This document shows, piece after piece, positions 854-29,499 of a DNA stretch of 37,918 bases (its first letter is position 1; each line of letters opens with the position of its first letter). The position numbers were made by a program, and so were the translations under genes. Origin of the DNA: Deltaproteobacteria bacterium. Lineage in GTDB: Bacteria > Desulfobacterota > Desulfomonilia > Desulfomonilales > Desulfomonilaceae. The stretch spans positions 1 through 37,918 of the forward strand of contig VGSG01000035.1 of the NCBI GenBank assembly GCA_016875095.1. The letters run 5' to 3'. Under the pieces are notes generated by a model, which did not search any database, was not told where the DNA came from, and saw nothing but the letters and a program-made list of their open reading frames with translations.

Positions 854-1008
854 GGAAGCCCTGAAGGATACTGGTCCTCTGACATCACATAATCCGAGAT
901 CAACGGTCGTGTCAAGCCTGTTGCATCCCAGCTCAGCGGTCTGATCACGAAATCCGCGGGCGTCGATCTTCGCGCTCGACCATCTCTGTGGCGACGGCCG
1001 GAGTGCCA

Positions 1009-2001: not shown

Positions 2002-2024
2002 GAAACCTCTTCCGTAGGTCCGAC

Positions 2025-2510
2025 ATGCAGAAACACCTTCTGACCATGAGAGTTAACGGCGAGCAGGTTGAACTCGCTGTCAGACCGAACGCTACGCTCT
2101 TGGACGTGCTCCGCGAAGACTTGGAACTCACCGGCGTCAAGGAAGGCTGTTCAGAAGGCGCATGCGGCGCGTGCGCTGTTCTGATGAACAATGAACCGAT
2201 CCGCTCCTGTCTCACACTCGCATTGGAGGCGAACGGCGCTGAGATCCTTACTATCGAAGGGCTTGCCACGGGAGGCCGTCTCCATCCACTCCAGGAGGCT
2301 TTTGTGGAGCAAGGAGCCGTGCAGTGCGGGTTCTGCACGCCGGGAATGATCCTTTCTTCCAAAGCGCTGCTGGACCGAAACCCTCAGCCGAACGATGAAG
2401 ATATCAAGACAGCGTTGGCCGGAAGTTTCTGCCGCTGCACCGGGTACGCCAAGATATTGGAAGCAGTGCGCGCCGCCCGAGACGGTGATGTCGGGAACGA
2501 GGGCTCTTAG
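2025..2510 (+). CDS. molybdenum hydroxylase small subunit, two [2Fe-2S] clusters
   Basis: The protein has 161 residues, typical for HcrC/CoxS/XdhC-type small subunits. The plant-ferredoxin-like N-terminal cluster is bound by Cys42, Cys47, Cys50 and Cys62 (GCSEGACGACAV then RSC). The second, helical domain cluster is bound by Cys101 and Cys104 (QCGFC) and Cys136 and Cys138 (FCRCTGY). It passes electrons between the molybdopterin subunit and the flavin subunit. The ATG at 2025 was chosen; a TTG at 1998 would overlap the stop of the preceding gene and adds nine residues not seen in the family. It lies 23 bases after the medium subunit and is followed by a 195-base gap with two hairpin structures before the large subunit. 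Confidence 0.92.
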   Translation: MQKHLLTMRVNGEQVELAVRPNATLLDVLREDLELTGVKEGCSEGACGACAVLMNNEPIRSCLTLALEANGAEILTIEGLATGGRLHPLQEAFVEQGAVQCGFCTPGMILSSKALLDRNPQPNDEDIKTALAGSFCRCTGYAKILEAVRAARDGDVGNEGS

Positions 2511-2547
2511 TCCCTTGTTGCGCAAATACGATCGCGTGTTCATGGCT

Positions 2548-2610
2548 TTGGTGGGACAGGCATCCTGCCTGTCATTCCTCAACAGACAGGCGAGACGCCT
2601 GTCCCACCAA
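2548..2610. repeat. REP-like nested palindrome
   Basis: The two 14-base outer arms (2548-2561 and 2597-2610, beginning TTGGTGGGACAGG) are perfect reverse complements. Each half is itself a hairpin: GACAGGC pairs with GCCTGTC across 5-base loops (2555-2573 and 2585-2603). The result is a cloverleaf-like 63-base element between two subunit genes. The form is that of REP/BIME-type dispersed extragenic palindromes. Copy number cannot be judged from one window. Confidence 0.7.
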
Positions 2611-2657
2611 TCCTTCCTGATGCACTGACCGGACTAAGGCGTCGGAACACTTGGCGC

Positions 2658-2683
2658 GTCCCCGCAGGGCGCCCATGCGGGAC
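2658..2683 (+). other. hairpin just upstream of the large-subunit ribosome site
   Basis: GTCCCCGCA and TGCGGGAC pair with a single bulged C, enclosing a loop that holds the self-complementary GGGCGCCC. The hairpin ends 11 bases before the GGAGG at 2695-2699. It could stabilise the downstream message or tune large-subunit expression. There is no U-tract good enough for a terminator. Confidence 0.35.
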
Positions 2684-2705
2684 CTTTCTCAACTGGAGGA
2701 TGATA

Positions 2706-9398: not shown

Positions 9399-10028
9399 TC
9401 ACCAACCCGTCTCACGCTTTTTCGATCGCGCCGCCATGACGCGAAGTTGCGCCAATACTGCTTCAAACTGGGCCCGCGTCTCCTTCAAGTCGCCGGAATT
9501 GTCAATAACGAAATCAGCTCTCTCTCTCTTCTCATCAATGGGAATCTGAGCCTGAAGACGCAAACGCGCATCCTTCTCCGTGAGGCCGTCTCTTTGACGA
9601 AGCCTCTGCTCTTGCACGATTCGAGGCACGTACACCACCACTACAACGTCACAGCTCCGATCCCAGCCCACCTCGTAGAGAAGCGGAACATCCAAAACGA
9701 GCAAATCATGCCCCGACCGCTCCAGTTCGGAGGAAATCCTGTCCTTTTCCTGCTCTACTCGCGGATGAATGATTGCCTCCAACTTCTTCCTTTTGTCCGG
9801 GTTTTCGAAGACCACACGCGCCATTGCGGTTCGATCCAAGCCGCCATCCGAGTCCAGGACCGCGTCGCCGAATTCCTTGCGGATCTCCTCAAGGGCCGGC
9901 GCGCCGGGCTTGACAACTTCCCGTGCGAGCGCGTCCAGGCAGATTATTGGAACCTCCGCCTCCTCGAACATCCGAGAAACCGTGCTCTTGCCTGACGCAA
10001 TGCCGCCGGTAAGACCTATCACCAGCAT
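9399..10028 (-). CDS. coaE: dephospho-CoA kinase
   Basis: CoaE carries out the last step of coenzyme A synthesis, phosphorylating the 3'-hydroxyl of the ribose in dephospho-CoA. The protein has 209 residues, the usual length. The Walker A motif is GLTGGIASGKST (residues 5-16). Further family marks are CLDALAREVV with the catalytic Asp, HPRV, the LDVPLLYE strand and an Arg-rich lid (RQRDGLTEKDARLRL). It is the upstream partner of the zinc-ribbon gene. Confidence 0.95.
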   Translation of the reverse strand: MLVIGLTGGIASGKSTVSRMFEEAEVPIICLDALAREVVKPGAPALEEIRKEFGDAVLDSDGGLDRTAMARVVFENPDKRKKLEAIIHPRVEQEKDRISSELERSGHDLLVLDVPLLYEVGWDRSCDVVVVVYVPRIVQEQRLRQRDGLTEKDARLRLQAQIPIDEKRERADFVIDNSGDLKETRAQFEAVLAQLRVMAARSKKRETGW

Positions 10029-10988: not shown

Positions 10989-11759
10989 GTGATCGGTCGA
11001 TTTGCCAAACGCAATGAGGACTGGGCAGGAAGGAATGAGGCTTCGCTGAGGCTTATTCTTCCTTTCTTATTTTTCCTGGCTTTTGTGGGGGCCTTTTTGA
11101 CAGCCCCTTTCGCGTGGAGCCAGCAGTCGAGAGATGACTGCAACAAATGCTGCGAGCGAAGTTTTGACGACGAATACTATCGCGATCAATGTCGGCTCAA
11201 ATGCTTCAGAAACGCGGACCATTGCCGCGAGGAAGGAGCACAGGAGCAGCCTCGTCAGCCGCAGCAAACGCAGCAGCTCCAAGAGCCTCGACAGGCGCAA
11301 CAGCCTCGGCAGATCCAGCCCAGACCGACTCAGCCACTTCAGGAGCCCCAGCAAATGCAGCCGTCTCGACAAGTCCAGCAACCGAGGCCGCCTCAGCAGC
11401 TCCCTCCGACTCAACAGTATGGCCCGCCGCAGCAGCTCCCTCCGCCTCAACAGTATGGGCCACCTCAGCAGCTCCCCCCACCTCAGCAGCGCCAACAGGT
11501 CCCACCAGGCGAGCCGAAGCCTCCGCCCGGGACTGTAGCCCTCAGGTGGCCCGATCCTTTGAACCTCACCCCCGGCAGGGAAGTTGACGCGGCCGGGCAG
11601 ATATTGCAACTCAACGGCGTCATGCCCAACCATCCGAGATACCCAGAGGCTTTGAGAGCTGTAGAGCTGGTGTTGGTCGAATTTGCAAGACAGAACCCGC
11701 GCGGAGGGCAGCTCCCCACCACGCAGCTTCGAAACATTGTGCTCAGGTATAAGCAGTAA
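10989..11759 (+). CDS. exported Pro/Gln-rich protein with Cys-rich head
   Basis: The protein has about 256 residues. A hydrophobic stretch LILPFLFFLAFVGAFLTAPFAW ends in a likely cut before SQQ. The mature N-terminus is Cys-rich (CNKCCER, CRLKCFRNADHC), six cysteines in about 30 residues, but without CxxCH heme motifs. A low-complexity Pro/Gln segment of about 100 residues follows, with 12-residue repeats of the type QQLPPPQQYGPP, and then a compact domain of about 65 residues ending in RNIVLRYKQ. The start is uncertain: the GTG at 10989 has AGAGG seven bases upstream, while an ATG at 10965 has a site too close. It lies upstream of a multiheme cytochrome. No family was recognised; a cell-envelope role is inferred. 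Confidence 0.65.
   Translation: MIGRFAKRNEDWAGRNEASLRLILPFLFFLAFVGAFLTAPFAWSQQSRDDCNKCCERSFDDEYYRDQCRLKCFRNADHCREEGAQEQPRQPQQTQQLQEPRQAQQPRQIQPRPTQPLQEPQQMQPSRQVQQPRPPQQLPPTQQYGPPQQLPPPQQYGPPQQLPPPQQRQQVPPGEPKPPPGTVALRWPDPLNLTPGREVDAAGQILQLNGVMPNHPRYPEALRAVELVLVEFARQNPRGGQLPTTQLRNIVLRYKQ
11394..11489 (+). repeat. 36-base in-frame tandem repeat
   Basis: Copies at 11394-11429, 11430-11465 and a partial copy at 11466-11489 encode QQLPPTQQYGPP, QQLPPPQQYGPP and QQLPPPQQ. The near identity at the DNA level suggests recent slippage expansion in the Pro/Gln-rich linker. Confidence 0.8.
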
Positions 11760-11844
11760 CCCTGCCTTTCGAGCGCTCGCCGGTGGCGCCAAGATTCCCC
11801 TTCTTGAAGGCCGCCGGGGCAGAGCGCCTCACCGCGGAGCAATA

Positions 11845-13767
11845 ATGAGTCATCCCCATTCAGGAGGGCGACTGGTCCTCTTTGGTTACGCGGCCGCGGT
11901 GATCGCGTTTTCTCTATGGTTGTCGGCCCCTTCGGGAGCAGAACCCTCCGGGCCTGCCGCGCCCGCTCTGATCCCTCTCGGTCCGCAAGAGTCCGCGCCT
12001 CGTGAGCCGCTATATCCCCAGTGGTGGGGGCCGGCGCCGGAAATCCCTGCTCAGATCCCTTGCAAGGAGCCCGGCTCCTGTCTCAAGTGCCACGAACAGC
12101 ACGCGACCATGGATCCATCGCACGCGTTTTCTTGCAAGCAATGCCACGGAGGCAATCCGGTCGCGGATGATCGGGAGCAAGCTCATGACGGGCTCATCGC
12201 CGACCCCGGCGGATTCGATTCAGTGGAGCGGACATGCGGAAAATGTCATCCCGAAGAGGCGCGCCGCGTGAAACGCTCGTCAATGGCTCTTGCCCCTCGA
12301 ATGATCAACCATGCCAGATTCGCGTTCCACGGCCAGGAGAACCCTGCGTCGCGCCATGCGACCGTGGCGTTAGAGTCCCTTCGGCAAATCCCCCATCCTT
12401 CCGAGTCATCTAATTTGGGAGACGATCTGCTTCGACGTTCCTGTCTCCGATGCCACTTGCATACCAAGGGTTCGGCGCGTTGGGGTGAACACCGCGGCTT
12501 GGGCTGCTCCGCGTGCCACTCACCTTTTCCGAACAGCCAGGACGGCAAGCCCAGACCGCACGCGATCGTGCGATCCGCAGGTATGACTTCTTGCCTCAAA
12601 TGTCATAACTCAAATCATGTGGGCGCTGATTTCGTGGGCCTCTTCGAGAAGGATTTCGATCGAGGTTTTCGCTCGCCTTTCGTAAACGGCAAGCAAACGC
12701 CCCGGATCTACGGGGCGGAACATCATCGCTTGGCATCGGATATCCATTTTCGCGCGGGTATGAGCTGTGTGGATTGCCACACGCTGGACGAGATTCACGG
12801 AACGGGTGAGCTTCCTCAGTCTCCATACTCTGGGGTCAAGGTCACTTGTGAAGGGTGTCACGTGAAAGGGGATCATCCGGCAGTCATGAAGGGGCACGAC
12901 GGAGCCCTCGTTCTGATCAGAGGGGCCGATCGCCGTATTCCGCTTTGGAAAGGCGATTCCGCGCCGCACAGCGTGCAAGCGCATCGCGACCGCCTCCGAT
13001 GTTCGGCCTGCCATGCGCTCTGGTCGTTTCAGGATTACGGCCTTCATTTGATGCTCGAAGAGAGGGCTGACTACTGGAAATGGGCCACGACCGCGACGCA
13101 AAACGATCCGCAGGCGCAGGCGATTTTGGAGCAAAACGTGGGCACGGAGGTGGATGCGCTTCCTCCGCAAACCGGAGCGATGCCGGCCAAGCCCGTGAAT
13201 GAATGGACCCTGCCCCGAACGAAAGACTGGCTCTCAGGCGAGTCTCGACCGGGGGCGTGGTTCAGAGGATACACAACGCGCCGATGGGAGCGGCCTCCTC
13301 TCGGGATCGATCACAAAGGTAAGATTGCGGTTATGCGCCCCATGTATCAGTACGTGGTCTCGCATGTGGACGCCCAGGACAATCTATTGCTTGACCGCGA
13401 GATACCAACCATGGGCTCGGGTAAGCCCGCGCTGGTATGGAATCCCTACGGGCCGCACACGATTTCCAGAATGGGCCGCCAGTGCCATGAGTGCCACGGC
13501 GACCCAAAAGCCGTAGGGCTTGGAGAAGGTTTCAGATCGCAGAAGAAACCCGGGTTCAAACCTATCTGGGCGCCGGAAGAGAAGATTCCCGGCAGGCACT
13601 TCCGATGGGACGCCCTGGTTGACGAAGAGGGAAACCCGCTCCAATTTAGCACGCACCCATCTGCGGGCCCTCTGGACGCCGCCACCATGAAAAGACTGCT
13701 CAACCCTCCCGATGCGCACCGGGCCCTCTGGCACAAATACCTGAAAGGCGACAAGACCGATCCTTGA
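11845..13767 (+). CDS. ten-heme periplasmic cytochrome c
   Basis: The protein has 640 residues with a signal-type hydrophobic segment at about residues 10-27. Ten CxxCH heme-binding motifs start at Cys79, 97, 131, 200, 221, 250, 308, 335, 386 and 547. The first nine are spread over 310 residues; the tenth (CHECH) follows a heme-free stretch of about 160 residues rich in Trp and Tyr. Multiheme cytochromes of this kind carry electrons in the periplasm or to outer-membrane partners in anaerobic respiration. The partner and electron acceptor are not shown. The ATG at 11845 has a weak GGAG, and a longer frame reaches upstream to 11683 into the preceding gene, which is unlikely. It follows the Pro/Gln-rich gene by 85 bases. 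Confidence 0.92.
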   Translation: MSHPHSGGRLVLFGYAAAVIAFSLWLSAPSGAEPSGPAAPALIPLGPQESAPREPLYPQWWGPAPEIPAQIPCKEPGSCLKCHEQHATMDPSHAFSCKQCHGGNPVADDREQAHDGLIADPGGFDSVERTCGKCHPEEARRVKRSSMALAPRMINHARFAFHGQENPASRHATVALESLRQIPHPSESSNLGDDLLRRSCLRCHLHTKGSARWGEHRGLGCSACHSPFPNSQDGKPRPHAIVRSAGMTSCLKCHNSNHVGADFVGLFEKDFDRGFRSPFVNGKQTPRIYGAEHHRLASDIHFRAGMSCVDCHTLDEIHGTGELPQSPYSGVKVTCEGCHVKGDHPAVMKGHDGALVLIRGADRRIPLWKGDSAPHSVQAHRDRLRCSACHALWSFQDYGLHLMLEERADYWKWATTATQNDPQAQAILEQNVGTEVDALPPQTGAMPAKPVNEWTLPRTKDWLSGESRPGAWFRGYTTRRWERPPLGIDHKGKIAVMRPMYQYVVSHVDAQDNLLLDREIPTMGSGKPALVWNPYGPHTISRMGRQCHECHGDPKAVGLGEGFRSQKKPGFKPIWAPEEKIPGRHFRWDALVDEEGNPLQFSTHPSAGPLDAATMKRLLNPPDAHRALWHKYLKGDKTDP

Positions 13768-17357: not shown

Positions 17358-17798
17358 ATGGATGACAAGGCCTTGAACATACTCGTATATCACTGCCGTA
17401 ACCTGCTCCTCTTCGAGAACGGAGGGCGCAAGAGCTTCGCCCGTTCGCACCCGGGCCTGAGATTGGTGGCCGTTCCATGCTCCGGTAAAGTGGAAGCGCA
17501 CCACTTGCTAAAAACCCTCGCAGGCGGAGCCCAGGGCGTCCTGGTCCTGGCGTGCGCGGAAAAGGCATGCCAGTTTCTGGAAGGTTCTTACCGCTCTCAC
17601 AAAAGGTTTGACTATGCGCGCTCATGGTTGGAAGAGCTTGGAATCGAACCGGACAGGATACGGTTTGCCCATATGCGGCCGAAGGATTTGGGATTTCTTG
17701 ATTCCATCCTGGAGGAGTTTTCTCAGAAGTTGAGGACCTTCGGAAGTTTCCCTCCCCAACAGGACCCTCTGACCTCTTTCCAGAACACCGGATTCTGA
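17358..17798 (+). CDS. MvhD-like iron-sulfur electron-transfer subunit
   Basis: The protein has 146 residues and resembles the delta subunit of methyl-viologen-reducing hydrogenase (MvhD/FrhD family), which carries a [2Fe-2S] cluster and passes electrons to heterodisulfide-reductase-like complexes. Visible family pattern: VPCSGKVEAHHLL, GAQGVLVLACAEKACQFLEG, and LLEELGIEPDRIRF-like (seen as WLEELGIEPDRIRF). Cysteines are at 13, 41, 66 and 71. The first usual CxxC pair is reduced to one Cys (YHCRNL), so cluster binding may differ. The ATG at 17358 was chosen over a GTG at 17322. It leads the metV-metF array. Known precedent: MvhD partners MetFV with HdrABC in Moorella; no Hdr genes are seen here. 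Confidence 0.75.
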   Translation: MDDKALNILVYHCRNLLLFENGGRKSFARSHPGLRLVAVPCSGKVEAHHLLKTLAGGAQGVLVLACAEKACQFLEGSYRSHKRFDYARSWLEELGIEPDRIRFAHMRPKDLGFLDSILEEFSQKLRTFGSFPPQQDPLTSFQNTGF

Positions 17799-17886
17799 TC
17801 GGCGCCGGCTTTCCGACGCCAAGGAAGGGCTCACGAGGGGCCTCAGGGACTTGACGCGACAAGCTTCCGAGCTTTGGAGGAGAACC

Positions 17887-18555
17887 GTGGTTGTAGCCGA
17901 ACGGAAGAACATCGAAGAAATACGCGGGATGGTCGATCGGTACTCCTCCATCCTGGTTGTTGGATGCGACTCTTGCGTGGCGGAGTGCGCCGCGGGCGGC
18001 CATCGTGAGACCATGCTCCTTGGGGCGGCTCTGAAGATTTCATTCCAGCAGGACAGCAGGAATCCTCGCATTACCGAAGCATGCCTCGACCGGCAATGTG
18101 TTGACGATTTCATCGAACAAATCGCTCACTTGGTTCCGGAACATGAAGCGATTCTCTCGCTGGGGTGCGGCGCGGGCGTGCAGGCCCTGGCGCGGGTGTA
18201 CGGAGACAAGCCGATCTTGCCTGCGCTGGACACGCTCTTCATCGGAGAGACCGAAATGCGCGGCGTCTGGCAGGAGAACTGCCTGGGCTGCGGTAAGTGC
18301 AAGCTTGGATACTTCGGCGCTGTCTGCCCCGTCACTCGCTGTTCGAAGAGGCTTATGAACGGGCCGTGCGGCGGGTCCAAGGAGGGACGATGCGAGGTAA
18401 ATCCCGGAATTTCCTGTGGCTGGCAAATGATTATCAACCGCTTGGAGACACTCGGTGAGTTAGACAGGCTGTCCGAATATGTTCCCCCGGTGGATTGGTC
18501 CACATCTCATTCCGGAGGGCCCCGACGAGTGGAAAGGGAAGATCAGAAACCGTGA
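17887..18555 (+). CDS. metV: MetV, zinc/iron-sulfur partner of methylenetetrahydrofolate reductase
   Basis: The protein has 222 residues and matches the methylene-tetrahydrofolate reductase C-terminal (MetV) family of acetogens and sulfate reducers. It is Cys-rich: CDSCVAEC (residues 27-34) and the hallmark segment NCLGCGKCKLGYFGAVCP then NGPCGGSKEGRC (about 131-169). MetV joins MetF in the methyl branch of the Wood-Ljungdahl pathway and can carry iron-sulfur clusters. The GTG at 17887 has GGAGG six bases upstream (17876-17880), better than a start at 17851. Its stop overlaps the start of metF in GTGA, which implies translational coupling. Confidence 0.88.
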   Translation: MVVAERKNIEEIRGMVDRYSSILVVGCDSCVAECAAGGHRETMLLGAALKISFQQDSRNPRITEACLDRQCVDDFIEQIAHLVPEHEAILSLGCGAGVQALARVYGDKPILPALDTLFIGETEMRGVWQENCLGCGKCKLGYFGAVCPVTRCSKRLMNGPCGGSKEGRCEVNPGISCGWQMIINRLETLGELDRLSEYVPPVDWSTSHSGGPRRVEREDQKP

Positions 18556-19475
18556 AGACCGACAGTCGTCTTGAGAGAGTTCTCCAAGCCGGGCATTTTG
18601 CGGTGACCGCAGAGTGCGGTCCTCCCAAGGGCTCGGATGCCGGAGTGGTGGAGAGAAAGGGCAAACTTCTTTTCGGATACGTGGATGCCGTCAATGTCAC
18701 CGACAATCAGGCCGCCACGGTAAGGATGGCTTCTCTTGCGGCGTGTGTAATCCTCAAGAACATGGGGCATGAGCCGATCCTCCAGATGACCACGAGAGAC
18801 CGTAACCGAATTGCGCTCCAAAGCGATTTATTCGGCGCGTACGCTCTGGGAATTCGCAACGTTCTCTGTCTGACCGGAGATCATCAGGTCTTCGGGAATC
18901 AGAAGGAAGCCCTAGGTGTCTTTGACCTGGATTCGATCCAGCTTGTGAGGACCGTTCGCGACATGCGTGAAGATGGGACCTTGATCGGTGGCGCAGATAT
19001 TGAGTCTCCACCAAAGATGTTCGTAGGAGCCGCGGCCAATCCTTTTGCCGATCCCGCGGCATGGCGTGTGGTTCGGCTCGCAAAAAAGGTACAAGCGGGC
19101 GCGGACTTCATCCAGACCCAATGCATTTATAACATGCAACGTTTCTCAAACTTCATAGCCCAGGCGAGAGACATGGGCCTGACGGAGAGAGTGAGCATCC
19201 TCGCGGGTGTCACGCCGCTCAAGAGCGCCGGAATGGCCAAGCACATGGCCACCAAGGTCGCGGGGATGGATGTGCCTGAAGCGATTATCAACCGTATGGC
19301 CGGCGTTCCCAAGAAGAAGCAGGCTGACGAGGGGATCAAGATCGCCGTGGAGACGATTCAGCATGTGAGGGAAATCAAAGGCATTGCGGGCGTCCATGTC
19401 ATGGCGATCGAATGGGAAGAACACGTGCCCGAGATCCTCTCCGCGGTAGGGCTGGATAAGCGGCCAAAAGTCTGA
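18552..19475 (+). CDS. metF: 5,10-methylenetetrahydrofolate reductase
   Basis: MetF reduces methylene-H4F to methyl-H4F with bound FAD, feeding methionine synthesis or the Wood-Ljungdahl methyl branch. The protein has 307 residues with a TIM-barrel pattern: FAVTAECGPPKGSD with the conserved Glu, VDAVNVTDNQAATVRMASLA, MTTRDRNRIALQSDLFGAYALGIRNVLCLTGDH, GADFIQTQCIYN and ILAGVTPLKS. The GTG at 18552 overlaps the metV stop; starts further upstream would lie inside metV and add non-family residues. No NAD(P)H-binding domain of a separate kind is seen, as is usual for MetFV systems, so the electron donor is open. Confidence 0.92.
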   Translation: MKTDSRLERVLQAGHFAVTAECGPPKGSDAGVVERKGKLLFGYVDAVNVTDNQAATVRMASLAACVILKNMGHEPILQMTTRDRNRIALQSDLFGAYALGIRNVLCLTGDHQVFGNQKEALGVFDLDSIQLVRTVRDMREDGTLIGGADIESPPKMFVGAAANPFADPAAWRVVRLAKKVQAGADFIQTQCIYNMQRFSNFIAQARDMGLTERVSILAGVTPLKSAGMAKHMATKVAGMDVPEAIINRMAGVPKKKQADEGIKIAVETIQHVREIKGIAGVHVMAIEWEEHVPEILSAVGLDKRPKV

Positions 19476-19507
19476 TTTCGCCCTCCTTCCCGGGGAGCGC
19501 CCACGAC

Positions 19508-19556
19508 CCAACCGGACCCTGAACTCTTTGAACGGGAACCAGGGCGGATGGGTTGG
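19508..19556 (+). other. hairpin in the leader before the first glutamate synthase-like gene
   Basis: CCAACC (19508-19513) pairs with GGTTGG (19551-19556), and CCCTG (19517-19521) with CAGGG (19540-19544), with small internal loops. It ends 22 bases before the start at 19579. It could be a processing or attenuation element that separates metF from the downstream genes. No U-run follows. Confidence 0.35.
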
Positions 19557-19578
19557 CAATCTCGTTGAGAGAAAGAAG

Positions 19579-20961
19579 ATGCCGAAGAAATATCACATCG
19601 AAGTCCGCCCCACGCCTAATCGATACCCGCAGATCGGTCGATCCGGCATCGTGGATTGGGGTGAAGGGTGCCTCAAGTGCCCGTCATGCGTGAAGCATGA
19701 GTGCGTGTACAACGTTTACCGGCAGCGCACGTTTTCAGCGGAGACAAACGCGGACACCATAGACGAGCTATGCAAAGACTGCTTCCGTTGTGTGCAGGGA
19801 TGCCCCAAGCGACTGATCCACAAGGCCCTGAATCCCGAATGGGAGAATCTGGGCGACGACGTGTACACTCCGGAGGTTGTCGCAGCCAATTGGGAACAAG
19901 CTAAGACGGGCAAGATCCCCGTGTCAGGCGCGGGATACGGCGGCGCGTTCGTGGGAAAAGGCTTCGATTCCATGTGGACGGACATGAGCGAAATTGTTCG
20001 GCCCACGCGCGACGGCATCCACGGTCGCGAGTACATCTCGACGGTGGTGGATCTGGGCAGACGGCCCGCCAATCTGCGGTTCGATGAGAGAGGAAATCTC
20101 TCGACCCAGCCTCTCCCCATGGTTCGAGTTCCCATACCGGTTTTGTTTGATATACCCGCGTTCGGCGATATGTCTTCACGAGTTTGGCATGCGGTTGCAC
20201 TGGCCGCGTCGGAGCTGGGAACCCTTGCTATAATCCCGCAGGCCGAGGTCGAGCCACTGTCCGATCTCAGATCATGGCTGGTTCCTCTCCTGGAGACTGA
20301 CGGCTGGGACAGGAAATGGATACGACAGTTCCGCATGGTCGAGCTGGCGGATAGCTCGGACACGGAAGAGCGGTTCGATCGGATCAAGAGGATCGACGAA
20401 GGTATTATCGTTTCCGTGCGAGTTCCAGCCACCGTGGACGCTGCAACCCGCGCCTGGGAACTGACCGATCATGGAGTGGACATAATCCACTTCGTGGCCG
20501 ACGAGAGAGGGTACGAACCCGGGGTCCCGGACGCGAGGCACCTCAAGGATGTCATACGGGCTCAACATGGGGCTCTGGTGGAGCGCGGGGTAAGAGATGA
20601 GATCACTGTTATGGCAAGCGGCGGTATTGCCATGGCTGAGCATGTGATCAAATCAATCCTGTGCGGAGCCAACGTGGTGGGCATAGATCTGCCGCTCCTG
20701 CTTGCCCTGGAATGCCGGTTGTGTCGCAACTGCGCGGAAGGCGGCGAGTGTCCGGTCAGGCTCTCGACCATCGACCCGAGATGGGGAGCGCAGAGGATCG
20801 TGAACTTGGTCGGCGCGTGGCACAATCAGTGCCTGGAGATGATGGGCGCGATGGGCATACGGGAGGCCCGAAGACTGCGGGGTGAAGAAGGCCGGGTCAT
20901 GTTCTTCGAAGACCTGGAAACCGACACCTTCGCCAGGCTCTTCAAAGGGAGAGAGGGATAA
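19579..20961 (+). CDS. ferredoxin plus degenerate glutamate synthase FMN-domain protein
   Basis: The protein has 461 residues. The N-terminus binds iron-sulfur clusters: Cys31, 34, 37 and 42 (CLKCPSC) and Cys65, 68, 71 and 75 (CKDCFRCVQGCP). The rest follows the glutamate synthase central-domain fold and is a tandem paralogue of the next gene, with the same end block: VMASGGIAMAEHVIKSILCGAN, ALECRLCRNCAEGGECPVRLS and DPRWGAQRIVNLVGAW. It lacks the GGMSFGS flavin/substrate loop, and the barrel N-half is different (IPVLFDIPAFGDMSSRVWHA). A structural or electron-relay role is inferred. The ATG at 19579 was preferred over 19528. It sits 16 bases before its paralogue. Confidence 0.75.
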   Translation: MPKKYHIEVRPTPNRYPQIGRSGIVDWGEGCLKCPSCVKHECVYNVYRQRTFSAETNADTIDELCKDCFRCVQGCPKRLIHKALNPEWENLGDDVYTPEVVAANWEQAKTGKIPVSGAGYGGAFVGKGFDSMWTDMSEIVRPTRDGIHGREYISTVVDLGRRPANLRFDERGNLSTQPLPMVRVPIPVLFDIPAFGDMSSRVWHAVALAASELGTLAIIPQAEVEPLSDLRSWLVPLLETDGWDRKWIRQFRMVELADSSDTEERFDRIKRIDEGIIVSVRVPATVDAATRAWELTDHGVDIIHFVADERGYEPGVPDARHLKDVIRAQHGALVERGVRDEITVMASGGIAMAEHVIKSILCGANVVGIDLPLLLALECRLCRNCAEGGECPVRLSTIDPRWGAQRIVNLVGAWHNQCLEMMGAMGIREARRLRGEEGRVMFFEDLETDTFARLFKGREG

Positions 20962-20977
20962 GAGGAACAGTCGAGCT

Positions 20978-22513
20978 ATGCGCTACAGGAATATCTGGAG
21001 TGAGGTCCCTCCGAGAAAAGTAATCGCCACTCCGTCTCGCTTCCGCCGCGGCATCGGCAAGTATACGGTGGTGGTGTCGGACGCGTGTAACCACTGTTTG
21101 AAGTGTGTGGTGGTTTGTCCGGAGAGTGTTTTTCGGGCGCGTGGGAGCAAGCTGGAGCCACCGCAAGACCATTTGTGTCTTGGTATTGAGTGCTCCAAGA
21201 AGTCGAATCGGTGCATGGCCAATTGTCCGGTCTCGGCAATTCGCGTCGGAGTGAATCCTTCCGTCAAGGCGCTGGGGGATAGGCGATGGACCGCGGATCT
21301 CCTGATGAGCACATGGCGCATGGCGGAGACGGGCAGCTTGCCGAAGAACGACCTTGAGTACCGAATAGGCGGTTCACAAGGCGGGTTTGATCGATTGAGG
21401 TTTGCCTTTCCGAAACGGCTTCCGAAACCTGATCTTGACAAGAATGACATCGATACCTCGATCACCCTCAACAGAAGGAACGACGCTTGCGAGAGAATCG
21501 ATATTCCCATCCCGGTTTACGGGGGCGGCATGTCATTTGGCTCAATAAGTCAGGTGACCATGCTCAGCCGTATTCGCGCCTACGCGGCCTGGGGATCTTT
21601 CTGTTGCACCGGCGAAGGCGGGTACCCGGAGATCCTGTACCCGTTTGACGATCACATCATTACTCAGGTAGCCACAGGCCTTTTTGGCGTCCGTGAGGAA
21701 ACAATCCAGCGGGTGAAGATCGTTGAATTCAAGTATGCCCAGGGCGCAAAACCGGGACTGGGAGGACATTTGCTCGGCGACAAGGTCACGCCCGCGGTGG
21801 CTCGAATTCGGGAGACTGTGCCGGGTTCTTCGCTCTTCAGTCCTTTCCCGTTTCATTCGGTCTACTCGGTGGAAGACCACAAGAAGCACATTGATTGGAT
21901 CAAGACAGTCAACAAGCGCGGGCTTGTCTCGGTCAAGGTTTCTACACCATCGGACGTGGACATGGTGGCGGTGGGCTCATATTACGCGGGGGCCCACATC
22001 GTGCACCTGGATGGGTCTTACGGCGGCACGGGAGCTGCTCCGGACGTGGCGAAGAAGAATATTGCCATGCCCATTGAGTACGCGATTCCTAAGGTGCACA
22101 AGTTCCTCGTGGATGAGGGAATTCGGGACGAGATATGCCTCATAGCCTCAGGTGGAGCTCGAACGGCATACGATGTCGCCAAAGCGATTGCGCTGGGAGC
22201 TGACGGCGTTGTGACCGGAACCTCCGACTTGGTCGCTCTGGAATGCGTGCGATGCCACAACTGCGAGAGCGGCCGGGGATGCGCGAGAGGCATAGCCACC
22301 ACCGACGCGGAGCTGGTGGGGTTGATGGATCTGGAATGGGGCACGCGGCGCATCATCAACATGCTTTGGTGCTGGAGGGACCAGTTGCGTGAGATCCTGT
22401 ATCGCCTCGGCATGAGGAGCATACGCGAACTCGTGGGTCGGACCGATGTTCTGGCGCACCTGGACTACAATTCAAACGTGCAGGATGACGATGTGAGAGA
22501 GGCGATCTATTGA
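20978..22513 (+). CDS. ferredoxin-FMN glutamate synthase subunit (archaeal-type GltB2)
   Basis: The protein has 511 residues. Two [4Fe-4S] motifs come first: Cys37, 40, 43 and 47 (CNHCLKCVVVCP) and Cys67, 72, 79 and 83 (CLGIECSKKSNRCMANCP). The FMN/2-oxoglutarate barrel follows, with GGGMSFGSIS at 182-191, PGLGGHLLGDKV, VSVKVSTPSDV, LDGSYGGTGAAP and LIASGGARTAYDVAKAIALGADGV. The [3Fe-4S]-type Cys group is CVRCHNCESGRGC. This is the synthase half of glutamate synthase, turning 2-oxoglutarate and ammonia into glutamate. No GltD-type NADPH subunit is nearby, so electrons probably come from ferredoxin or the neighbours. The ATG at 20978 has AGAGG at 20961-20965. Confidence 0.88.
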   Translation: MRYRNIWSEVPPRKVIATPSRFRRGIGKYTVVVSDACNHCLKCVVVCPESVFRARGSKLEPPQDHLCLGIECSKKSNRCMANCPVSAIRVGVNPSVKALGDRRWTADLLMSTWRMAETGSLPKNDLEYRIGGSQGGFDRLRFAFPKRLPKPDLDKNDIDTSITLNRRNDACERIDIPIPVYGGGMSFGSISQVTMLSRIRAYAAWGSFCCTGEGGYPEILYPFDDHIITQVATGLFGVREETIQRVKIVEFKYAQGAKPGLGGHLLGDKVTPAVARIRETVPGSSLFSPFPFHSVYSVEDHKKHIDWIKTVNKRGLVSVKVSTPSDVDMVAVGSYYAGAHIVHLDGSYGGTGAAPDVAKKNIAMPIEYAIPKVHKFLVDEGIRDEICLIASGGARTAYDVAKAIALGADGVVTGTSDLVALECVRCHNCESGRGCARGIATTDAELVGLMDLEWGTRRIINMLWCWRDQLREILYRLGMRSIRELVGRTDVLAHLDYNSNVQDDDVREAIY

Positions 22514-22521
22514 GGTAGACC

Positions 22522-25185
22522 ATGAAATACGACGGTTCCTTCGCTGACAAGATCATTGCAAACCGACGGCGGGAGCGCGGCCCCATCGATTCGAAGAGGA
22601 ATGTCAAAACGGCCGATGAGGGCGGTTGCGGTGTTACCGGTTTTGCGTGCAGTATTCCTGTCGCGGGCCGCCATATTTTTGAACCTTCAATCCGCATGCA
22701 CAACCGGGGAAACGGCAAGGGCGGCGGAATCGCCGCAGTGGGAATCAATCCCGATCGGTTGGGAGTTTCCCAGGACGAACTCGATTCACATTACATGCTT
22801 CACGTGGCGTTGCTGGAACCTTCTTGCCTCCCCGGGCTCAAGGAAACCTGTTTCGACCCGTACTTTGACGTGGCCAAGGAGGAACTTTTGGAGCATGTCC
22901 GTGACTACCGCGACATCGAGGGCCTTGAGATCCGGCCTCCCGAAGTATGGCGGGCATTTGTTCGCGTGAAGCCCGCGGCCCTGGAGAAGTTCATCAAGGA
23001 GACCGGCCTGCGCGGCATCGATCCACGTCAAGCAGAGGACGAGTTTGTCAGCAGGAACACATTTCGGCTCAACAAGCAGCTCTATAGCTCCCTCGGCGAG
23101 AAGCAGGCATTCGTGCTCTCACACGGCCGGAATGTGATGATTTTGAAAATCGTGGGCTATGCCGAGCACGTGGTCCAGTACTATCAGCTTGAGGACCTGC
23201 AAGCACACGTCTGGATTGCTCATCAACGCTATCCCACGCGCGGCCGGGTGTGGCACCCGGGCGGCGCTCACCCATTCACCGGCCTGAACGAAGCTCTCGT
23301 CCACAACGGGGACTTCGCAAATTATTACGCGACTTCGGATTACCTCAGGCAGAGGGGCATGGAACCGCTCTTCATGACCGACACCGAGGTGAGCGTCATG
23401 CTCTTTGATCTGTGGAACCGAGTGTACGGCTATCCGTTGGAGGTGATCATCGAGGCATTTGCGCCCACCACCGAGTTGGACTTTGACCTCCTGCCGCCGG
23501 AGAAGCAAAGGCTCTATGACTCGATTCAAACCACCCATGTGCACGCGTCGCCTGACGGTCCTTGGTTCTTCATTATCGCGAGGAACATTCCTGAAACACA
23601 AACCTATCAGCTCATCGGGATAACCGACACCGCTATGCTGCGGCCTCAGGTCTTCTCTCTGTATGACGGCGACGTTCAAATCGGCCTCGTCTGCTCGGAA
23701 AAGCAGGCAATTGACGCGACCCTCCGGTCGCTTGCCGATGAAGATCCACGCTTCAGCCCGGTCGCGGACAAATACTGGAACGCGCGAGGGGGGTCCTTCG
23801 ACGACGGCGGCGCCTTTATGTTCAGCGTGCAGCCCCTGGAGAACGGCGGAAGAGAGCTTGTTTGTCAGAACAAGTTCGGGGAATTTGTCTCCGTAAGCTC
23901 TCGCAAGCCGCTCGATATAACCAAGGCTGTCCGCAAGCCGGAGCAACAGGCGAGAGATATCGACTCAGCCCTCGAAGACGCGTTGGAAAGGGGAGACGCC
24001 GGCCGCGTTTTCCAATATTTTCGGACTCACACTTCGTGGTGGGATTACAACACTCTGCGCTGGGCTGTGGGCCGGATGGGCCGGATGGCCTCCAAGAGCG
24101 CGCAAGCTTTGCCTCACGTGCTCGACGCGCTCACCCTTCTCATCGATCGACGCATTCCTCTCGGAGATAAGAAGAATTCCGCGCTCGTCCGGATCGTCAC
24201 CAATCAGCTCTACGAGATCCTGCGAACCATGCCCCGGATCACGGGTGGGGCTCTATTGCACCATTATGCCCTGATCGACGCGGATACCCGGCATCACCTG
24301 CGCCCACCCATCGCGATGGAAACCACCCTGATCGTTGACGCACGCTATTTCTCTCCCGAAGGAGACGATTGCGACGCGTCGCTTCTGTCCGACGCCCACA
24401 AGATGGGATGGAAGAAATTTATCGTGTTCGACCTGCGAGGCCAGCGGTTCCAGGGTTGCGGATTCGGCCCGAAAACCGACGACATACGCATCGATCTGTA
24501 CGGCTCCTCAGGGGACTACGTGGCCAGCGGCATCGATGGCATGGAGATCCATATTCACGGTAATGCGCAGGACCAGATCGGCCAGATTATGAAAAAAGGA
24601 ACGCTGGTGATTCACGGCGATGTGGGCCAGTGCTTCCTTTACGGCGCCAAGGGCGGAACCACGTTCGTTCTGGGCAATGCCGCGGGACGGCCTCTGATCA
24701 ATGCCGCGGGCAGGCCGAAGGCGGTGATCAACGGCACTGCCCTGGACTTCCTCGCTGAGAGCTTCATGGCCGGCGATCCCCTGGCCGGCGGCGGCTTTGT
24801 CATCGTAAACGGACTCACCCGCGACGAGGACGGCACTATCATCTTTCTCGACAGGCCGTACCCCGGTTCCAACCTGTTCTCCCTCGCGTCCGGCGGAGCC
24901 CTGTACATCAGAGATCCCGACAAGAAGGTTGTGAATGAACAACTGAACGGTGGAGAATTCAGGGAGTTGTCCGACGCGGATTGGAACTTGATCCGACCGT
25001 GCCTTCTTGAGAATGAAGGTCACTTCGGCATCAAGGTCGAAGACCTGCTCAGCGTGGACGGTGTGAAGCGAACGCCGAGAGAGGTTTACCGAAAAATAGA
25101 AGCCGTGCCGCTAGCGGTCCTCAGGAAGATCCCGGAAACGGACGATTCAGTCTGGGCGACAGAGAAGGCAAGGGCCGCTCTCTGA
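22522..25185 (+). CDS. glutamine amidotransferase class II plus GXGXG-domain glutamate synthase subunit
   Basis: The protein has 887 residues. Residues 36 to about 400 are a class II glutaminase: nucleophile Cys36 in GGCGVTGFACS, IAHQRYPTRGRVWHPGGAHPF, the HNGDFANYY loop and a TDTEVSV acidic site. Cys36 is preceded by 35 residues, as in GltB propeptides of bacterial glutamate synthase, so maturation by cleavage before Cys is expected. Residues about 640-830 are the GXGXG beta-helix (IDLYGSSGDYVASGIDGMEI, GDVGQCFLYGAKGGTTFVLG, NGTALDFLAESFMAGDPLAGG). Together with the previous gene it supplies the parts of an archaeal-type split glutamate synthase. It begins nine bases after its neighbour, with GAGG at the junction. 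The last gene of the array. Confidence 0.85.
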   Translation: MKYDGSFADKIIANRRRERGPIDSKRNVKTADEGGCGVTGFACSIPVAGRHIFEPSIRMHNRGNGKGGGIAAVGINPDRLGVSQDELDSHYMLHVALLEPSCLPGLKETCFDPYFDVAKEELLEHVRDYRDIEGLEIRPPEVWRAFVRVKPAALEKFIKETGLRGIDPRQAEDEFVSRNTFRLNKQLYSSLGEKQAFVLSHGRNVMILKIVGYAEHVVQYYQLEDLQAHVWIAHQRYPTRGRVWHPGGAHPFTGLNEALVHNGDFANYYATSDYLRQRGMEPLFMTDTEVSVMLFDLWNRVYGYPLEVIIEAFAPTTELDFDLLPPEKQRLYDSIQTTHVHASPDGPWFFIIARNIPETQTYQLIGITDTAMLRPQVFSLYDGDVQIGLVCSEKQAIDATLRSLADEDPRFSPVADKYWNARGGSFDDGGAFMFSVQPLENGGRELVCQNKFGEFVSVSSRKPLDITKAVRKPEQQARDIDSALEDALERGDAGRVFQYFRTHTSWWDYNTLRWAVGRMGRMASKSAQALPHVLDALTLLIDRRIPLGDKKNSALVRIVTNQLYEILRTMPRITGGALLHHYALIDADTRHHLRPPIAMETTLIVDARYFSPEGDDCDASLLSDAHKMGWKKFIVFDLRGQRFQGCGFGPKTDDIRIDLYGSSGDYVASGIDGMEIHIHGNAQDQIGQIMKKGTLVIHGDVGQCFLYGAKGGTTFVLGNAAGRPLINAAGRPKAVINGTALDFLAESFMAGDPLAGGGFVIVNGLTRDEDGTIIFLDRPYPGSNLFSLASGGALYIRDPDKKVVNEQLNGGEFRELSDADWNLIRPCLLENEGHFGIKVEDLLSVDGVKRTPREVYRKIEAVPLAVLRKIPETDDSVWATEKARAAL

Positions 25186-26355: not shown

Positions 26356-29300
26356 TCACTTGAATTCCAGGGAGTGAAATTCAGTTAACGAGTCCGCTTT
26401 TGTCCAGAGTCCCACGTATCCATCCAGCGTCCGATCCGCTCTGTGGTCGATCAGCAATCGATCGTTCAAGTAGCATTTCGTCCTGTATTCGGATGTCTCA
26501 ACGCGGAGGGCGTGCCAGGTGTTCGATGCAATGGGAAGGTCAACCGTGGCAAGCTGAAATCTCTTGGAATGTTTAAATTCAAACAAGATGGCATTGTTTT
26601 CCAGCGCATTGATTCTGAATGCGAAATAGTTGCCCACGTCTCGTATGCCAAAGGCGATGCCGCCCGCCTGATCAATAAGGCCGGCAAGGAGCCTCACCTT
26701 CACGCGTATTGTTCCTTCGTTGAGCAGACTTCCTTTTCGGACAGCCAGCGGAAAATAGTAATAGGCGCCTACGTTATCCAGGAATTCCTGGTACCGGCTT
26801 CCTAGGAATCTTCCCATGAGCCCGGCCGCGCGAGATGAAACCCACGTTGCATATTGAGATCCGTCTGAAAGCCATACCGTGCGTCCGTCAGCTTCAGCCT
26901 GCCTCCAGTGGCCCGTGTTTATATAGAAATCGGGTGGTTCGTCAGGTCGCTTTCTCTCCAGAAAATTGTAGTCCTCCCGGAAAAAGGATTCAGTCAGTAT
27001 GGGAATTTCGTCCGGATTGGCGATTCCCATGTCCATGAGTCTGCTGGATCCCAATAGCCTTCCCAGTTGGTCGAGAGCCTCCTCCATACTCTTGCGTCCC
27101 GCGCGAGAGAGGGATGCCTCTATCAGGTCGCCCTTGACCTGAACAGTGAAGCCCAGTCGCCGCAAAACCTCCTCAAGGAATCGGATGCGTAGGGACTTGC
27201 CGTAATAGGATCCGACACCTCCGGCGAATTGAAGCGTCACATAGTTTTGGTCGGCATCTTCGCCGCACAGTGAGTCAACGGTGGCGAAATGATATCCGAA
27301 CCGTGCGTTAAAGTTCATGTAGTCGTCGGAAATGAGCGCATAGCTGGGACTGCCCAGGACATCTTTCGTCTGAGGCGCGGCGCCTCCGGCGACCAGTTCC
27401 ATAAGATTCCGCGCGCTGATGCCGACGGTCGCCTTCCAGTTGATTCCCGGATGATGCAGGCCCTGTAAAATGGCGGCGAAAGGAATCGAGCCTATGCTCC
27501 GGGCATCGGGAGTGTCTTTGGCAGCGAGGTTTTTCCGGAGACCTCCTCCAAGATCAATAACGTAGAGCCACAGAGGAATACTCAGTTTCATCTCGACGGC
27601 TTCCGTCACCCGTTCAGCCACATCTCCATAGCCGAACATCTCCCGCATAGCCTGCTCATGGGTAAATCGAATGATGTCGTGGATTGTTCGACAGCCTTCC
27701 GGCGAGAACGCTGAATCCTGCGGATCGGTCAGGTTGAGGGGCGAGATACTCTCCAAGACGGCCTGCATCTTCAGGTGGGTTGGACTTGCGAAAATGGGTC
27801 GCTTCACCCGGCGCATCGATTGTAGAAGGTCTTCCACCACTCCGGCATAGACCCGGGACCGACTTGCCCATAACGTGATCGTCTCGCCGTCAACAAGTGT
27901 TGAAGTGGCGCGCTGGGTGTCGAAGAGAGCCGGAACCGCGAATTCACGGGCCACCGAAGCCAGGTGGCTTGTTATGCTTCCGACATCCGTAATGATGCCT
28001 TTGACTTTGGCTATGACCTTGGCGTGCTGTGGAGATGCGGTTTTCGTGACCAGTATCACATCCTCTTCCAACCGCTTGGCATCTGCAAAAGTTTCCCCAA
28101 CTCCCACAAGTACGACCTTCCCCGTAGCCGCTCCCGCGGACACGCACTTGCCACCCTCGATCAGCGCCTCATGGCCTGGGTAATCTAGGACGATTTGCTG
28201 GGTTGACGCCTCGTCTTCTTCGTAAAGGAGCAAAGGACGGGACTGGAGCACATACAACCGGCCAGACTTGTCTACGGCCCATTCAATGTCCAGGGGACGA
28301 CCAAAGTGGTTCTCCAGGATCTTGGCCCCATCCCAGAGCTGGTGGAGGATCGCGTCCTCGTCGCGTCTGTCCGCATCACGATACCGCGACAACAACTCAG
28401 TCGCGGTGGAGTCTTCTGCGGTCATCTCCTGCTCGACAACTGAAAACCGGTCTTTATCCAGCAAATAGGTGGCGTGCGCAGACGCTTCTCCTCCCACAAG
28501 CGCCTCACCAATGCCTTTGACGGCATTTATCTTCATGCGGCGGACATCACCGGAAACCGGGTCCGCAGTATAGAGCACGCCGCTTTCCCGTGCGTCGACC
28601 ATTGCGAGAACCAGGACGCACATGGGCGTTTCCCGGTCATCCAGTCCGTGGAGAAGACGGTAAGAGAGCGCTGAGGCGGAATACTTGCTCGCAACAACCG
28701 TCTTGTACGCTTGAACCAACTTGTCCCGATGCACGTTCAGAATAGAGGTATATTGTCCTGCGAAAGAAGTTTCACTGTCCTCGCCGACTGCGCTGCTCCG
28801 CACCGCAACAGCGACCCCCGGATGAGTTCTCTTCTCTAGGTCTTCATAGGCCCGAATCAGCTCCTTCCCAATTGAATCCGGCGCCTTCTCTTCCATGATG
28901 CGAGTCTGGATAAGCTTTCCAACGGCCTCCAGCTTCTCGATGTCGTCCGGATCGATCTCAGCGAGGGCACGGTCGATCACGTCAACAAGCCCTGTTTCCG
29001 TAATGAACTGCTCATAAGCAGCAGCCGAGATGGCAAAGCCTTCAGGCACGCGAAGTCCGATCCCTCTTTTGATGACGGCGAGGTTTGCCGCTTTTGCCCC
29101 CACAGATCTAAGGTGATCGGAATCGATCCGCTCAAGCGGCAGAACAAAGGACTCGGTTGCGGGCCGAATCTTTGGCGCAAGCTCGTCCCGCACCGACCGT
29201 TGAATACTTGCCAATACGGACGACAGCATCGGCCGAGCTTTCCCGGACAAGCCCTCGAGGCGCCTGACGATAGCCGCCACCTCTTCGTGGAGCGCATCGT

Positions 29301-29499
29301 AGTGAGCCTCAATTTGCCGACTAACAAGAGGACGGTTGGAGTAATACGTCTCCTCCAGGTCCGCCATAAGCGTCAAGGCCCTGCGATTGTGGTCCAGCAA
29401 GTCTTTGAAGAAGTTATATTTGCTGGCGTGCTTCGGCCCCACAACACGCGACGGGGCAACCACGCTGCTTTCCAAAGGAGATCTCACATTGTCTTTCAT
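26356..29499 (-). CDS. PEP-synthase-like protein: ATP-grasp, phosphohistidine swivel, novel middle domain, LamG-like C-terminus
   Basis: The protein has 1047 residues. Residues 1-120 are helical. Residues about 125-425 are the pyruvate phosphate dikinase/PEP synthase ATP-grasp domain (VGAKAANLAVIKRGIGLRVPEGF, AVRSSAVGEDSETSFAGQY, VLYTADPVSGD, DIEWAVDKSGRLYVLQSRPL). Residues about 455-550 are the mobile phosphohistidine domain with His512 in GSITSHLASVAREF. The PEP/pyruvate barrel expected next is missing. Instead a domain of about 330 residues that I do not recognise follows (SDDYMNFNARFGYHFATVDS), and then a concanavalin/LamG-like domain (about 925-1047; NYFAFRINALENN, LNDRLLIDH, VGLWTKADS). 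A phosphoryl-transfer reaction on another acceptor is inferred. It ends a leftward run behind chrA. No signal peptide is seen. Confidence 0.85.
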   Translation of the reverse strand: MKDNVRSPLESSVVAPSRVVGPKHASKYNFFKDLLDHNRRALTLMADLEETYYSNRPLVSRQIEAHYDALHEEVAAIVRRLEGLSGKARPMLSSVLASIQRSVRDELAPKIRPATESFVLPLERIDSDHLRSVGAKAANLAVIKRGIGLRVPEGFAISAAAYEQFITETGLVDVIDRALAEIDPDDIEKLEAVGKLIQTRIMEEKAPDSIGKELIRAYEDLEKRTHPGVAVAVRSSAVGEDSETSFAGQYTSILNVHRDKLVQAYKTVVASKYSASALSYRLLHGLDDRETPMCVLVLAMVDARESGVLYTADPVSGDVRRMKINAVKGIGEALVGGEASAHATYLLDKDRFSVVEQEMTAEDSTATELLSRYRDADRRDEDAILHQLWDGAKILENHFGRPLDIEWAVDKSGRLYVLQSRPLLLYEEDEASTQQIVLDYPGHEALIEGGKCVSAGAATGKVVLVGVGETFADAKRLEEDVILVTKTASPQHAKVIAKVKGIITDVGSITSHLASVAREFAVPALFDTQRATSTLVDGETITLWASRSRVYAGVVEDLLQSMRRVKRPIFASPTHLKMQAVLESISPLNLTDPQDSAFSPEGCRTIHDIIRFTHEQAMREMFGYGDVAERVTEAVEMKLSIPLWLYVIDLGGGLRKNLAAKDTPDARSIGSIPFAAILQGLHHPGINWKATVGISARNLMELVAGGAAPQTKDVLGSPSYALISDDYMNFNARFGYHFATVDSLCGEDADQNYVTLQFAGGVGSYYGKSLRIRFLEEVLRRLGFTVQVKGDLIEASLSRAGRKSMEEALDQLGRLLGSSRLMDMGIANPDEIPILTESFFREDYNFLERKRPDEPPDFYINTGHWRQAEADGRTVWLSDGSQYATWVSSRAAGLMGRFLGSRYQEFLDNVGAYYYFPLAVRKGSLLNEGTIRVKVRLLAGLIDQAGGIAFGIRDVGNYFAFRINALENNAILFEFKHSKRFQLATVDLPIASNTWHALRVETSEYRTKCYLNDRLLIDHRADRTLDGYVGLWTKADSLTEFHSLEFK

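Follow-up and report, generated by a model that had tools for sequence, protein, structure and literature searches.

The stretch of DNA analyzed here (the window; 37,918 nucleotides of contig VGSG01000035.1) comes from the genome of a member of the Desulfomonilaceae (4.7 Mb in 202 contigs) and contains, between positions 17358 and 25185, a block of six plus-strand genes in which genes for methylene-tetrahydrofolate (methylene-H4F) reductase are directly followed by those for a split glutamate synthase (GltS). In order, these genes are:

17358..17798, + strand: MvhD/FlpD-like protein of a GltS-dedicated subfamily, 146 aa (Pfam FlpD, 90.6 bits)
17887..18555, + strand: MetV, iron-sulfur subunit of methylene-H4F reductase, 222 aa (PF12225, about 118.6-118.7 bits)
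18552..19475, + strand: MetF, flavoprotein of methylene-H4F reductase, 307 aa (MTHFR PF02219, 146.1 bits)
19579..20961, + strand: Fd477, ferredoxin plus GltS-like barrel, a proposed electron-relay subunit (Pfam Glu_synthase, partial)
20978..22513, + strand: GltB2, ferredoxin domain plus flavin mononucleotide (FMN) glutamate synthase barrel, 511 aa (PF01645, 302.3 bits)
22522..25185, + strand: GltB1/3, class II glutamine amidotransferase fused to a GXGXG domain, 887 aa (GXGXG 57.0 bits, GATase_6 29.2 bits)

Domain calls were made with Pfam and NCBIfam, and gene boundaries were read off the sequence; the name Fd477 was coined here from the length of the open reading frame (ORF) as first listed. 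An earlier sequence-only reading had described these genes as six tightly spaced, same-strand genes, and all six are present in the order it gave. It had also noted the lack of Hdr and GltD in the block, in agreement with the present scan: among 25 ORFs of the window (6 scanned against Pfam and NCBIfam, 19 against NCBIfam alone), no genes for Hdr, RnfC, FrhB or NuoF and no FrhB/FdhB-like subunit were recognized, nor was GltD, for which the remaining genome was not searched.

Three samples of relatives indicate that the gene order is conserved. In the first, 60 relatives were searched with Fd477, and matches were found in 30, including 14 of the 17 members of the same family. MetF is encoded directly upstream of Fd477 in all 14 same-family loci, and the complete MvhD-MetV-MetF-Fd477 order is present in 12; in the remaining two, the contig end cuts MvhD (L043) or falls inside MetF (L047). 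The second sample, the best 80 of 556 relatives from a scan of GTDB genomes, leans to close relatives and was analyzed over a reach of 2.6 kb upstream of Fd477, using profiles built from the window and fetched cluster members. The genes found upstream of Fd477 in these best 80 of 556 loci are MvhD-MetV-MetF (42 loci), MvhD only (17), MvhD-MetV (7), MvhD-MetF (6), MetV-MetF (5), MetF (1) or none of these (2), counts that include as weak rows a remnant in L086 and the MetF gene cut by a contig end in L151. Of the eight loci lacking MvhD, seven have a short upstream contig, and in L107 MvhD lies 3.1 kb upstream. Three of the 17 MvhD-only loci encode MetV 3' of GltB1/3, two of them along with MetF; MetVF is located 3' of GltB1/3 in L103 and L108, and in L115 MetV lies at the contig end. 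The same block order reaches records labelled Nitrospirae, Thermodesulfovibrionia, Chloroflexi, Phycisphaerae and Abyssobacteria. The L086 remnant (positions 9868-9981; 114 bp of MetF, 44 bits) is found between MvhD and Fd477 in one of the six MvhD-MetF loci and suggests that MetVF was lost from that cluster.

The third sample covers the phylum evenly with 148 genomes, of which 42 encode Fd477 (E <= 1e-60); several of these loci share their contigs with loci of the best 80 (e.g., L052 and L083). With the window included, the 42 loci contain MvhD-MetV-MetF (18), MvhD only (11), MvhD-MetV (3), MvhD-MetF (1), MvhD-MetV-MetF-MvhD (2) or MvhD-MetV-MvhD-MetF (1) upstream of Fd477, two are cut by contig ends (both with MetF), and four have no MvhD, including one with a very divergent protein (G084). 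Among the MvhD-only loci, that of G058 encodes a MetV 3' of the core within the stretch examined, and in L202 the MetF gene is cut by a contig end. MetF is encoded upstream of Fd477 in 24 of the 42 loci, to be compared with a roughly estimated chance of about 0.1% per genome that a same-strand MetF copy would fall within the 2.7 kb upstream. With script-chosen starts, the median spacing is -13 bp between MetV and MetF (n=49) and 14 bp between MetF and Fd477 (n=54), and where MetVF is absent, the median gap between MvhD and Fd477 is 20 bp (n=17).

The most constant partner of GltS is MvhD, which is encoded upstream of Fd477 in 36 of the 42 even-sample loci and in 72 of the best 80 of 556. The MvhD of the window scores well above the Pfam cut-off for FlpD (22.3 bits), reaches 56.8 bits against NCBIfam VhuD (cut-off 215) and matches the solved MvhD chains 7bkb and 5odc. 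The cluster-type MvhDs contain four cysteines in 71 of 73 cases by pattern; the exceptions are one copy truncated by a contig end and one CSA variant. The canonical CxxC is present in only four of the 73 and is missing from 69, including the one from the window; this count takes in one copy cut at the N-terminus (L082). In a tree of 123 rows and 135 columns that includes no Moorella sequence, all 18 MvhDs that lie beside MetVF elsewhere fall, together with four more rows, into a set with 98% support. Outside this set are 98 of the 99 GltS-side MvhDs, that of the window among them; the sole exception is the MetV-side MvhD of G073 (L216), where another MvhD is encoded between MetV and MetF. In the tree, GltS-side MvhDs from loci with MetVF are intermingled with those from loci without it. 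The sequence-only reading had assigned MvhD to MetVF; the tree and the operons devoid of MetVF tie it to GltS instead, as a separate subfamily. Two loci, of G078 (L211) and G112 (L213), carry two MvhD genes each, one preceding MetV and the other Fd477, and are possibly an intermediate of a merger. The host genome contains 13 FlpD-family matches altogether; three FlpD/MvhD matches have one in-frame TGA each (G000:C44 25321-25689 and 20296-20664; G000:C21 27522-27893), as could be expected for a selenocysteine-containing MvhD.

Fd477 matches Pfam Glu_synthase (55.9 bits) in its C-terminal part only. Two N-terminal four-cysteine motifs of the 2x[4Fe-4S] type are detected in 115 of 121 Fd477 rows by a strict pattern, and the protein from the window has an additional C-terminal CxxCxxCx5C site. 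Of the 114 rows in which MvhD, MetV or MetF lies upstream, 113 have this C-terminal four-cysteine site, as do both cut rows, whereas none of the five rows without these genes has it. The three barrel motifs of GltB2, retained in 63-64 of 64 GltB2 relatives, are lost in all 121 Fd477s; from known GltS structures, we take the respective loops to bind FMN or 2-oxoglutarate. In the AlphaFold model of Fd477 (predicted local distance difference test, pLDDT, 82.6), the barrel aligns in the VIA comparison with glutamate synthase 1ea0 over 305 residues (Z 24.4, root-mean-square deviation 3.2, 15% identity). The fold alone separates weakly: among the VIA rows shown, glutamate synthases have Z scores of 22.9-24.4 and glycolate/lactate oxidases of 21.4-22.0, and Foldseek alone ranks glycolate oxidases at the top. 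The most conserved stretch of the protein (about residues 116-152) is the least confident part of the model and may become ordered on a partner. In seven loci (L058, L116, L139, L199, L204, L205 and L206), Fd477 and GltB2 are fused in a single ORF, and these natural fusions indicate that the two proteins work together. Because the GltS barrel fold and the iron-sulfur motifs are kept while the GltB2 barrel motifs are absent, Fd477 looks like an electron-relay subunit.

GltB2 is similar to GltS of known structure (PDB 2vdc, E 7e-51), with intact barrel motifs and additional ferredoxin-type cysteine motifs. No other full PF01645 match occurs in the host genome, where the two remaining matches are Fd477 and a partial one of 43 bits. 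GltB1/3 contains an EGGCGVTGF motif, found in 46 of 50 relatives, which likely holds the catalytic cysteine after propeptide removal. A gene for glutamine synthetase (GlnA), identified with Pfam, adjoins the L208 cluster. In view of this gene and the GOGAT-type motifs in GltB2 and GltB1/3, the reaction is likely to be glutamate synthesis (GOGAT). Another enzyme to be considered is N-methylglutamate (NMG) synthase (MgsABC), a methylamine-glutamate methyltransferase with an NMG dehydrogenase partner; the GlnA gene beside the L208 cluster favors GOGAT over MgsABC. Glutamine synthetase look-alikes, judged by their N-termini alone, also occur near the clusters of L214, L199 and L053.

The metV and metF genes are adjacent, the GTG start of metF overlapping the metV stop. 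The MetV of the window has 13 cysteines common to its relatives and, searched as a single sequence, no solved-structure match at E <= 0.01. Of the five MetF homologues in the host genome, the one in the window is 60% identical to the second copy at G000:C20, which is part of a second MvhD-MetV-MetF triad whose MvhD has the canonical CCxxC. The MetFs of the clusters form four groups in the tree (one of 50 rows that includes the window, one of 6 rows, one of 7 rows that mostly lack MetV, and the pair G078/G112) that are separated by MetFs labelled as non-cluster, and at least four changes are needed, two of them forced by well-supported branches. On the Fd477 tree, at least 11 changes are required to account for which loci have MetV/MetF beside GltS and which do not. 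It appears, then, that MetF joined the cluster more than once or was repeatedly lost. In the loci of the G083/G171/G117 type, MetV alone is found between MvhD and Fd477, with its cysteines kept (one column at 0.7). In the even sample, 14 genomes have GltS and MvhD and no MetF before Fd477; all 13 that were tested (all except G081) carry MetF elsewhere (E <= 3e-113). The genome of G158 is 99% complete and encodes acetyl-CoA synthase (ACS); it has no MetF at E <= 1e-40 other than that of the cluster, so that its MetVF would have to work for the one-carbon (C1) pathway itself. ACS is present in 33 of the 42 genomes with Fd477 and in 54 of the 106 others (Fisher p 0.0028, a test that ignores relatedness), and its presence does not differ by cluster MetF (19 of 24 Fd477 genomes with MetF, 14 of 18 without). 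Finally, an HdrA-like ORF of 1020 aa, its likeness judged by the N-terminus alone, is followed by MvhD-MetV-MetF some kb 3' of GltB1/3 in G058 and G094 (loci L057/L218 and L184/L219).

A different gene occupies the position upstream of Fd477 in G071, G132 and G138 of the even sample and in G028 (loci L207, L209, L212 and L060). These genomes have no MvhD there, and a GlcD-type flavin adenine dinucleotide-dependent oxidase with an iron-sulfur domain is encoded about 40-55 bp upstream of Fd477, with the same GltS core downstream. A close MetF is missing from three of the four, with no match at E <= 1e-20 in G028 and matches of just 2e-25 in G071 and 1e-27 in G132; G138 has one at 8e-125. In this they differ from the 13 tested even-sample genomes with GltS and MvhD, all of which have a close MetF elsewhere. 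The GlcD-like oxidase is a second candidate electron-input module.

These observations lead us to read the block, tentatively and with a chance somewhat short of even, as a glutamate synthase of modular build, into which electrons are fed by a GltS-specific MvhD and MetVF, that is, an Hdr-free electron-transfer module. The complex itself, its cofactors, and the path and direction of the electrons are what we infer from the genes. Electrons would pass from the MetF flavin to the iron-sulfur cluster of MetV, the [2Fe-2S] cluster of MvhD, the iron-sulfur clusters of Fd477 and finally the FMN of GltB2, and GltB1/3 would supply ammonia from glutamine. Methyl-H4F would be oxidized to methylene-H4F, and electrons near -200 mV would reduce 2-iminoglutarate in GltB2; C1 oxidation would pay for glutamate synthesis, with neither NADPH nor ferredoxin needed. 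The potential of the 2-oxoglutarate/glutamate couple is near -120 mV and that of lactate/pyruvate near -190 mV. For the methylene/methyl-tetrahydrofolate couple, a value of -200 mV has been given (PMC8760232). If these potentials hold, MetVF and GlcD-type donors are both adequate for GltS and poor for NAD+, and the direction from methyl-H4F to GltS is therefore favored; we regard it as the most likely one, and it takes up about two thirds of the confidence in the modular reading. Of the proposal in the sequence-only reading that the ferredoxin-FMN proteins belong to a new electron-transfer or bifurcating complex, the electron-transfer link is retained and the bifurcation is not, since neither a flavoprotein of the bifurcating kind nor a subunit that binds NAD(P)H was recognized in the block. 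NADH-driven bifurcation, with no Hdr, NuoF, RnfC or GltD among the scanned ORFs of the window, is conceivable and not indicated. A wider claim, possible but doubtful, is that MetVF-MvhD-GltS represents a fifth kind of methylene-H4F reductase complex and, at the same time, a general plug-in GltS, in which the Fd477 relay would take electrons from varied low-cost donors, either MetVF through MvhD, with methyl-H4F as the direct donor, or a GlcD-type 2-hydroxyacid dehydrogenase.

Several observations weigh against the modular reading. A complex is not provable from gene order alone. The sequence-only reading had named the separation of MetVF from the GltS genes in related genomes as evidence against a link, and the even sample is divided in this respect: the two are together in 24 of the 42 loci, whereas 11 have MvhD and GltS without MetV or MetF upstream, three have MetV only, and four lack MvhD as well. 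The MvhD tree, with its 135 columns, has many open forks and some long branches. Four of the five Fd477 rows that lack the C-terminal cysteine site are one clade, that of the GlcD-type loci, so the correlation of the site with the upstream genes reflects at most two events. The model of a 998-aa Fd477-GltB2 fusion (36 rows) has a predicted template-modeling score of 0.60 and is uninformative on the interface; residues 115-152 and 462-500 and several GltB2 loops are of low confidence. The host has four MetF homologues besides that of the window, and the supposedly non-cluster MetFs of L218 and L219 actually lie a few kb 3' of a GltS core. The cluster contains the only MetF of G078 (E <= 1e-20), and ACS has no match there at 1e-60; MetVF in this genome presumably makes methyl-H4F for methionine, that is, works in the reductive direction. 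A glutamate dehydrogenase-family gene is present in the host, so this GltS need not be the sole route to glutamate.

Among the alternatives, co-regulation only, that is, an anabolic operon for methyl groups and glutamate whose proteins act separately, survives best, and we consider it somewhat unlikely. Both functions are biosynthetic, MetVF is kept elsewhere in a share of the genomes, and glutamine synthetase is encoded upstream of MvhD in some clusters (L208), as in a nitrogen-assimilation regulon. However, such an operon leaves unexplained the GltS-specific MvhD subfamily, MetV without MetF, the co-occurrence of the C-terminal iron-sulfur site of Fd477 with MvhD, and the single gene order across distant records. 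Given the MvhD pattern, the iron-sulfur motifs and the swaps of modules, shared regulation alone fits less well. Another scenario, unlikely in our estimate, is a shared ferredoxin hub, in which reduced ferredoxin would feed GltB2 through Fd477 and, via MvhD, a reductive MetVF. Ferredoxin-type cysteine motifs in both Fd477 and GltB2 are compatible with such a hub; to our knowledge, however, neither enzyme requires MvhD for the use of ferredoxin. An isolated enzyme of the MetVF type can use reduced ferredoxin in vitro (PMC8760232), and reductive MetF is presumably needed by G078, but the GlcD-like dehydrogenases that fill the slot upstream of Fd477 in four loci look like donors, not acceptors. 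It is highly unlikely that MvhD on the GltS side is the docking partner of an HdrA, a hydrogenase or a dehydrogenase whose gene lies elsewhere, with MetVF as a passenger: MvhD is the usual adaptor of HdrA (PMC2702500, PMC9012536), the host has its 13 FlpD-family matches, and the HdrA-like ORF lies just 3' of GltB1/3 in L057 and L184, but nearly all cluster MvhDs are outside the MetVF-associated set (98 of 99) and lack CxxC (69 of 73), and no Hdr was recognized among the scanned ORFs of the window.

The arrangement resembles several known systems and differs from each. Type IV methylene-tetrahydrofolate reductase, MetVF-HdrCBA-MvhD of Moorella thermoacetica, with the same arrangement in Sporomusa ovata (PMC7483475), shares with the block MetV, MetF and an MvhD-family protein encoded together; here, Hdr is missing, GltS subunits are present instead, and MvhD is of another subfamily without the canonical CxxC. 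The block is not classified as type IV because no Hdr was recognized among the 25 scanned ORFs. With the type III enzyme (MetVF-RnfC2) it shares MetVF and an electron-carrier subunit, whereas no RnfC-like subunit was recognized here. In split glutamate synthases without GltD, the FMN barrel with a ferredoxin domain, the amidotransferase and the GXGXG domain are encoded by separate or fused genes. The domain layout of the GltS core is the same, and no GltD was recognized here, but the block additionally encodes the barrel paralogue without GltB2 barrel motifs (Fd477) and MvhD, often along with MetV and/or MetF. The F420-dependent glutamate synthase of anaerobic methanotrophic (ANME) archaea, inferred from gene clusters (PMC9012536), also combines a split GltS with an added input module, FrhB in that case and MvhD with MetVF in the present one. 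It is debated which redox partner MetVF-type methylene-H4F reductases use in the cell (PMC8760232), and of the four reductase types named in the consulted part of that paper, none is linked there to GltS. No description of an MvhD/MetVF/glutamate synthase block was found in the open-access literature searched, a scope outside which most subscription papers and bioRxiv fell; the block thus seems to combine known modules in an undescribed, yet widespread arrangement. If the modular reading is correct, carbon and nitrogen metabolism would exchange electrons directly in many anaerobic bacteria, and a role is suggested for the motif-less GltS paralogue (Fd477) of these operons.

The block is flanked by gatCAB on one side and by a gene for a UbiE/MenG-type methyltransferase on the other. 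A scan for regulatory signals was uninformative, with 3 promoter-like sites (3.1 expected) and 3 terminator-like sites (7.4 expected). Beyond the block, a 1047-aa protein encoded on the minus strand (26356-29499) has phosphoenolpyruvate synthase-like similarity that is confined to about residues 115-567. The genes at 988-5051 resemble those for the beta and alpha subunits of 4-hydroxybenzoyl-CoA reductase, with scores under the family cut-offs, and a 694-aa protein (11683-13767) is similar to the cytochromes of selenite/tellurite reduction operons (ExtM, 184.6 bits; cut-off 800).

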